Shown here one piece after another: positions 61,205 through 64,000 of a stretch of 64,000 bases of DNA. Every line of letters starts with the position of its first letter. Positions within the stretch are counted from its first letter, which is position 1. The stretch spans positions 1,488,001 through 1,552,000 of the forward strand of contig NZ_FNQB01000003.1 in the NCBI RefSeq assembly GCF_900107455.1, written 5' to 3'. This DNA is from Asanoa ishikariensis (lineage in GTDB: Bacteria; Actinomycetota; Actinomycetes; Mycobacteriales; Micromonosporaceae). A program made the translations under genes and the position numbers. The notes under the pieces are model-generated. The model did no database searches and was not told where the DNA came from. It saw nothing but the letters and a program-made list of their open reading frames with translations.

Positions 61205-61739
61205 GGACGAGCGTCCCGCCCGGGCGCTGAGCGCCGACGTGCTCTCGGCGCTGGACCAAGGGACGGAAGCGGTCCTGATCCCCTTCCTCAACGAACTGCT
61301 GGACGAGCTGCCGTGGTGGAACCCGGCCTGGCGCGTCACCCGCGTGGAGGCCGTCAAGCCAAGCGCCGCCAAGACCGTCGGTTCGGGCTTCGACGAGGTC
61401 ACCGTGCTGGGGCAGGCCGGCGCGGATCCCCTGCCGTTCGTAGGACGGATCCGCCTCCAGGACGACCGGTTGGTCCGGTTCCAGGCCAAGATCGGTGACG
61501 TGGTCATCGGGCCGGGCACGACGCCCGCGGGAGAGCCCGAGCCGGATCCGTTCGCCGCGATCATCCGCATCCTGATGGACGTACGCGGGGTCTCGGACCA
61601 GGACCTGGCCCGGCAGTGCTACCTGTCCCGGGCGACGATCCGCACCCTGCGCGGCGGCTGGAGCCCGGATCCGGTCGTCGTCCGACGGATCGAAGAGGCC
61701 ATGGACTTCGTTTTCGACGCCCGCTCCGACGCGAAATGA
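61197..61739 (+). CDS. Hypothetical protein downstream of the exporter, possible DNA-binding tail
   Basis: A 180-residue soluble protein from GTG 61197. The first half has helices ([21 protein letters not shown]) and a beta-rich region ([40 protein letters not shown]). The last 60 residues read like a helix-turn-helix: [21 protein letters not shown], then [18 protein letters not shown]. It is translationally coupled to the permease. No family was recognised. Confidence 0.7.
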
Positions 61740-61762
61740 AAGTCGGGTAGCGTTATCGGTCC

Positions 61763-61843
61763 GAGACGAGAGGCGCTGCAACGGGGTCCGCCCCGCCACG
61801 CTCGTCCGGGAAACACCCAAGGTCGCCTCCGTTTATTCGGAGG
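61763..61843 (+). ncRNA. S-adenosylhomocysteine (SAH) riboswitch upstream of metH
   Basis: The segment matches the SAH riboswitch core: P1 GACGAG (61765-61770) with CTCGTC (61801-61806); conserved AGGCGCTGCAAC (61771-61782); inner stem CGGGG/CCCCG (61782-61786 with 61791-61795); then GCCACG before P1 closes. A pseudoknot can form between AGGCG (61771-61775) and CGCCT (61824-61828). A hairpin CCTCCG/CGGAGG (61826-61831 with 61838-61843) covers the metH Shine-Dalgarno and shares bases with the pseudoknot, so the two are mutually exclusive. SAH binding would thus free the ribosome site. Confidence 0.85.
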
Positions 61844-61851
61844 TGGTCGGT

Positions 61852-64000
<2,149 letters not shown>

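Follow-up and report, generated by a model that had tools for sequence, protein, structure and literature searches.

A probable SAH riboswitch, of an actinomycete version, before a methionine synthase gene in Asanoa ishikariensis

The window, that is, the whole stretch of 64,000 nucleotides analysed here, comes from the genome of Asanoa ishikariensis (G000:C3:1488001-1552000; genome size 9.09 Mb). At its end lies a forward-strand gene with an ATG at 61852–61854, which runs from 61852 to position 64000 and continues beyond the window. A preliminary description had taken this gene to be metH, encoding a cobalamin-dependent methionine synthase, and the identity is borne out by a TIGR02082 match above cut-off and by the best relative of solved structure, 9ssp (E 1.2e-250). 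The end of the reading frame was found past the window, in L294, and the length of the protein computed from the coordinates is about 1201 residues.

The leader of metH is short, and all of its features lie on the forward strand. A −10-like hexamer, TAGCGT (61748–61753), is an instance of a TANNNT motif common to metH leaders. Between this hexamer and the metH ATG stand P1, P2, the core GCGCUGCAA, CCACGCUCG, AAGG and the strand CGCCUC. Read directly and checked by script, P1 pairs 61765–61769 with 61802–61806, P2 pairs 61782–61786 with 61791–61795 around the loop UCCG (61787–61790), and the core AGGCGCUGCAA occupies 61771–61781. A pseudoknot joins AGGCG in the core (61771–61775) to CGCCU (61824–61828). 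It can be extended to six pairs by 61770 with 61829, giving GAGGCG at 61770–61775 (aptamer positions 7–12) opposite CGCCUC at 61824–61829 (positions 49–54), while 61770 has an alternative partner in 61801, at the end of P1. The pair 13x48 is broken, C13 (61776) facing U48 (61823).

The 3′ strand of the pseudoknot doubles as a strand of a hairpin over the Shine-Dalgarno sequence (SD). Here the anti-SD strand CCUCCG (61826–61831) pairs with CGGAGG (61838–61843), an arm established by direct reading, by script and from relatives, and two further pairs extend the hairpin to 61824–61845. The preliminary description had placed P1, the inner stem, the core, the pseudoknot and this hairpin exactly, and was also right that the hairpin covers the GGAGG of metH, since the SD (61839–61843) lies inside the arm. 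Its further point, that the two folds cannot coexist, holds as well: both need 61826–61829, and they are therefore mutually exclusive. The estimated energies are −13.6 kcal/mol for the SD hairpin and −9.5 kcal/mol for the pseudoknot helix; the greater strength of the hairpin fits a default OFF state which a ligand could tip. When the pseudoknot strands were blocked in a folding model with P1 and P2 kept, the bases of the start codon were unpaired with probabilities of 0.95, 0.90 and 0.92, against 0.39, 0.22 and 0.74 otherwise. In the same model the five SD bases were unpaired at 0.16, 0.84, 0.23, 0.08 and 0.09, four of the five re-pairing elsewhere, and the SD was still largely paired when accessibility was computed without forcing P1 and P2.

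The preliminary description had also assigned the element to the family of S-adenosylhomocysteine (SAH) riboswitches, RF01057. The covariance model of that family does match 61762–61835 over its full length (1–78 of 78) with an E-value of 1.1e-4 in a local search, or 6.7e-4 across the 9.09 Mb genome, but the score of 33.4 bits misses the curated gathering cut-off of 37 bits. Across the 64,000-nt window, no Rfam family scores as high as its gathering cut-off. In 61600–61960, RF01057 is the only riboswitch family listed at E-values up to 10, and the SAM/SAH riboswitch RF01727 gave no match there at that threshold. Checked against the traits of RF01057, the element has both stems in the family's order, a pseudoknot of six pairs between core and 3′ strand with 13x48 broken, and a place before a gene of the SAH cycle. 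The core letters GCGCUGCAA, CCA-GCUCG and AA are kept, whereas the consensus G30 and C46 are here C (61799) and G (61821). A second sound RF01057 hit in the genome (35.8 bits; G000:C2:957688-957768, L001) lies before ahcY.

Comparison with other actinomycetes gives stronger figures. From 95 diversity-filtered aptamers, nine, mostly longer ones, were dropped by hand, and the alignment of the remaining 86 left out both the window and its ortholog L035. A covariance model built from this held-out alignment scored the window at 69.5 bits (E 3.5e-11 genome-wide), and this score together with the gene context rules out a chance RF01057 hit. The 20-pair structure, comprising P1, P2, the pseudoknot and 30x46, is 95.1% paired in the 86 relatives, against at most 44.6% for slid versions of it. 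Two-sided changes occur in 11 of the 20 pairs, and none of 500 shuffles comes up to these values. P1 (helix 1) is 94.7% paired and has two-sided changes; P2 has them in five of its six helix pairs; the pseudoknot (helix 2) is 100% paired, with two-sided changes in two pairs. The 30x46 pair shows no variation in these 86 aptamers. A plain fold of 61755–61870 is of ordinary stability (z −0.23): 82 of 200 shuffled sequences fold as stably or more so. The evidence for the element that these sequences offer is comparative, not energetic.

Searched phylum-wide at E-values up to 0.001, the actinomycete model matched 8 of 296 genomes, one of the matches (L262) being judged a chance hit, so that the switch appears patchy. 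Among all phylum-wide hits of this model L262, L289 and L291 were judged to be chance, and the rest, which include loci already encountered, are all C/G at positions 30 and 46. The E-values of this model can mislead, as L252 shows: it scored 30.3 bits (E 7.3e-5) and was nevertheless judged a chance match, in DNA which looks like part of a helicase gene.

The letters at positions 30 and 46 were followed through a wider scan, which gave 222 hits in 219 loci and, once duplicates and L113 (whose locus ends before the 3′ strand) had been removed, 206 distinct aptamers. Among the matches listed, 127 distinct aptamers carry C30/G46 and 77 carry G30/C46, with none mixed among these 204. L249 (C/C; E 0.013) and L252 (C/T; E 0.0176) were set aside as chance because they are weak hits in which the AA before the strand is absent. 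One of the pattern searches, which returned at least 119 stretches, was limited to G or C at position 30; when another search excluded G there, all aptamers recognised by the scan were C30. Thirty-five loci had no scan hit: nine metH loci of the window's family that lack the switch, six loci with a distant metH-like gene, and a further 20 made up of weak RF01057 hits and L128. Re-inspection of these 20, together with L249 and L252, found none of the 20 with the core plus AA and 3′ strand, the best by the actinomycete model being L245 (E 0.010).

All 127 C30/G46 aptamers come from Actinomycetota, 84 from genomes of the window's phylum and 43 from titled records. Of the G30/C46 type, 76 of 77 come from titled records, mostly Proteobacteria by title, along with a few MAGs whose titles say no more than bacterium; non-proteobacterial records are L106 (Armatimonadetes), L179 (Fimbriimonadaceae) and L207 (Holophagaceae). 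Since the proteobacterial examples were drawn from titled records, aptamers with A or U at position 30 may also exist in that phylum. One strong G30/C46 aptamer, L241 (57.5 bits; G120:C76:7637-7703), belongs to a genome of the window's own phylum, a small and distant one; it may have been transferred, represent an old branch or lie on a misplaced contig. With L241 as sole exception the exchange tracks the phylum split, so it may go back to a single event. That 30 and 46 change together in this way suggests a base pair between them without proving it.

The exchange bears on both the pocket and the annotation. In a crystal structure with SAH, as described in the accessible part of PMC7057144, C16 and A29 flank the adenine, which bonds with G15, and the tail of the ligand contacts C46. 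The exchange thus falls on a reported contact position, while G15, C16 and A29, the adenine-holding letters, are kept in the actinomycete type. This type differs from the RF01057 consensus at 30, 46 and the pseudoknot letters, and it usually falls under the cut-off: the Rfam threshold was reached by 3 of 18 actinomycete loci (sampled from 43), compared with 17 of 18 G30/C46 loci (sampled from 73). Within the window's family, RF01057 is found in 56 of 91 genomes at E-values up to 0.1 and passes the cut-off in 31 of the 91. We class the window element as a variant SAH riboswitch of the actinomycete type instead of a plain RF01057 call.

The genes that follow these aptamers belong largely to the SAH cycle. 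As judged by tblastn, the 127 C30/G46 aptamers are followed by metH in 65 cases, by ahcY in 49 and by neither in 13, and metH follows only 5 of the 77 G30/C46 aptamers. In six of the 13 remaining loci (L006, L077, L213, L227, L228 and L236, from genomes G014, G078, G085, G024, G036 and G081) a MOSC-domain gene comes directly after the aptamer, with Pfam MOSC_N and MOSC above cut-off; we know of no reason for SAH control of a MOSC-domain protein. Adenosine deaminases follow the aptamer in L092 and L222, both confirmed by Pfam, and the genes in L145 and L121 look like deaminases by sequence. Hydrolysis of SAH yields adenosine besides homocysteine, which makes a deaminase a sensible target. A methyltransferase-domain gene follows in L024 (658-1485; G056), and the target in L108 is cut by the end of the locus; L189 is the last of the 13. 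In the literature searched, for the most part papers free of subscription, neither MOSC nor adenosine deaminase genes are named as SAH riboswitch targets.

Close relatives of the window's metH occur in 40 of the 91 genomes of its family, at 42 loci; the scan found the aptamer at 33 of these and none at nine. Six of the nine switchless loci form one clade (support 100/99), which is present in all six searchable genomes of the genus and includes a second metH of the same genome, C2:447937, 77% identical to the window copy over the part compared. The window metH and its ortholog in G003 make up a separate clade (100/100); within the genus sample no other metH carries the switch. These support values come from a tree whose bootstrap had not settled. 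The presence of the switch on this clade and its absence from the genus-wide one suggest that a metH responsive to SAH was acquired or retained alongside a switchless one. When ten metH-type loci were searched with Rfam at E-values up to 0.5, a SAH aptamer appeared only in L034 and L035, and the second copy (G000:C2:447937-448836, L041) returned nothing, its leader having no SAH aptamer. The genome also holds a third, distant MetH-like gene (G000:C3:1587632-1588486, L046), 38% identical over the part compared. The broken pair 13x48 is peculiar to the same two switch-bearing genes: across the 127 actinomycete aptamers it is C-G in 123, U-A in two and C x U in two, the window and L035. U-A replaces C-G in L030, L244 and L257–L261 (family f8), a two-sided change which supports the pseudoknot. 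The preliminary description had mentioned neither this mismatch, nor the exchanged letters at 30 and 46, nor the switchless second metH.

The switching geometry is general among metH leaders. In all 65 distinct metH leaders with an aptamer, at least four of positions 51–55 pair with a downstream SD-like arm, so that the competition described above for the window recurs throughout; the expectation with shuffled 3′ parts is already 36.7 of 65, the shuffle preserving single-base composition only and many of the leaders coming from related genomes and so not being independent. Several pair types occur at positions 54, 56 and 57, for instance C-G in 61 leaders and U-A in four at position 54, and G-C in 35 and C-G in 21, besides other pairs, at position 56, these counts being taken from each sequence's own predicted fold and hence biased towards pairing. 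In ahcY leaders an SD-like hairpin is found in 30 of 49, where 15.8 are expected. Upstream, every one of the 65 distinct metH leaders has a TANNNT that begins 11–27 nt ahead of the core GAG, compared with 2 of 65 for a control stretch further upstream; ahcY leaders give no such signal (20 of 49, control 15 of 49). From the −10-like motif we infer that the metH transcript starts at about 61759–61761.

Taken together, these observations make it very likely that the leader from about 61760 is entirely a switch, an actinomycete version of the SAH riboswitch that activates translation of metH. The metH mRNA would begin near 61760, at the start of the aptamer. With little SAH present, 61824–61831 would pair with the SD in the hairpin 61824–61845, and metH would barely be translated. 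As SAH builds up, it would bind at the junction of P1, P2 and the pseudoknot and hold 61824–61829 in the pseudoknot; the SD would be freed, MetH made, and the homocysteine from SAH recycling returned to methionine. The ON direction is what the exclusive geometry predicts. The reading as a whole is favoured by the full-length RF01057 match, the held-out model score and the covariation, by the target genes (65 metH and 49 ahcY among 127) and by ahcY following the genome's other aptamer, as well as by the exclusive SD hairpin in 65 of 65 leaders, the conserved TANNNT and the lack of U runs of four or more after the hairpin in metH leaders. Counted against this reading are the sub-cut-off score, the z of −0.23, the high shuffle control for the hairpin, the re-pairing of the SD, the broken 13x48 and the genome-mate metH that has no switch.

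The last two points also speak for a rival reading, a decayed or de-tuned SAH riboswitch, one that folds and binds SAH weakly and leaves the second metH mostly off or barely regulated: C13 x U48 is confined to the window and L035 (2 of 127), and the window metH is an extra copy beside the genus-wide one. Such decay is improbable, given that the leader is otherwise intact in its core positions, SD hairpin and −10-like motif and that the mismatch is common to two genomes with 92% identity between their MetH fragments, which argues that the leader has been kept. It is more doubtful still that the hairpin hides no SD and instead terminates transcription. A U run of at least four follows the arm in 7 of 49 ahcY leaders, but in none of the 65 metH leaders, and the window has UGGUCGGUAUG after the hairpin; termination before metH was rejected on these U-run counts, and we consider it barely credible. 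In ahcY leaders such as L007, L104 and L119 a U run after the SD-like hairpin makes it resemble an intrinsic terminator, and there the pseudoknot strand may control termination.

The exchange at 30 and 46 raises the question of the ligand. That the actinomycete RNA recognises a related compound, such as adenosine or another adenosyl thioether, might be argued from the exchange itself, 46 being the tail contact reported in the accessible part of PMC7057144, from the adenosine deaminases among its targets, and from close pocket variants with different ligands in other riboswitch classes, described in the available parts of PMC10853860 and PMC9295807. This we regard as very improbable, because ahcY or metH make up 114 of the 127 targets and the reported adenine-holding letters G15, C16 and A29 are kept. 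A broader proposal has a somewhat better, though still small, chance of being correct: the actinomycete RNAs would form a distinct pocket variant in which the long-range 30/46 pair is reversed and the ligand tail read differently, with a changed affinity or choice of ligand and a wider regulon that includes adenosine deaminase and MOSC genes. The literature searched, again mostly papers free of subscription, holds no account of a 30/46 exchange.

The translational SAH riboswitch favoured here belongs to an established kind of switch and represents its actinomycete version. With RF01057 it has in common P1, P2, the core letters other than those at 30 and 46, the pseudoknot, the placement before SAH-cycle genes and the strand exchange at the SD; it departs from the family in having C30/G46 instead of G30/C46, other pseudoknot letters, the 13x48 mismatch and a score under the cut-off. 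SAH riboswitches have already been published for Mycobacteriaceae (PMC3766115), which are likewise actinobacterial, and the parts of that paper that were available give no account of a 30/46 exchange. According to the accessible part of PMC4239095, metH is a taxon-specific target of the SAH riboswitch in Comamonadaceae; the target gene is the same as in the window, although the hosts are Proteobacteria. The SAM/SAH riboswitch RF01727, as presented in the available part of PMC7367207, also binds SAH and has a pseudoknot, but it is an H-type pseudoknot of another plan, found in Rhodobacterales before metK.

For Asanoa ishikariensis, the short RNA switch before metH very probably senses SAH, a toxic by-product of methylation, and permits synthesis of the enzyme in response, which probably accounts for the control of one of two methionine synthases. 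The clean exchange at a reported ligand contact provides a naturally occurring double mutant of a riboswitch whose crystal structure is known, with which the role of this contact could be tested. Since the Rfam cut-off passes over 15 of the 18 sampled actinomycete examples, annotation underestimates the SAH regulon in these bacteria.
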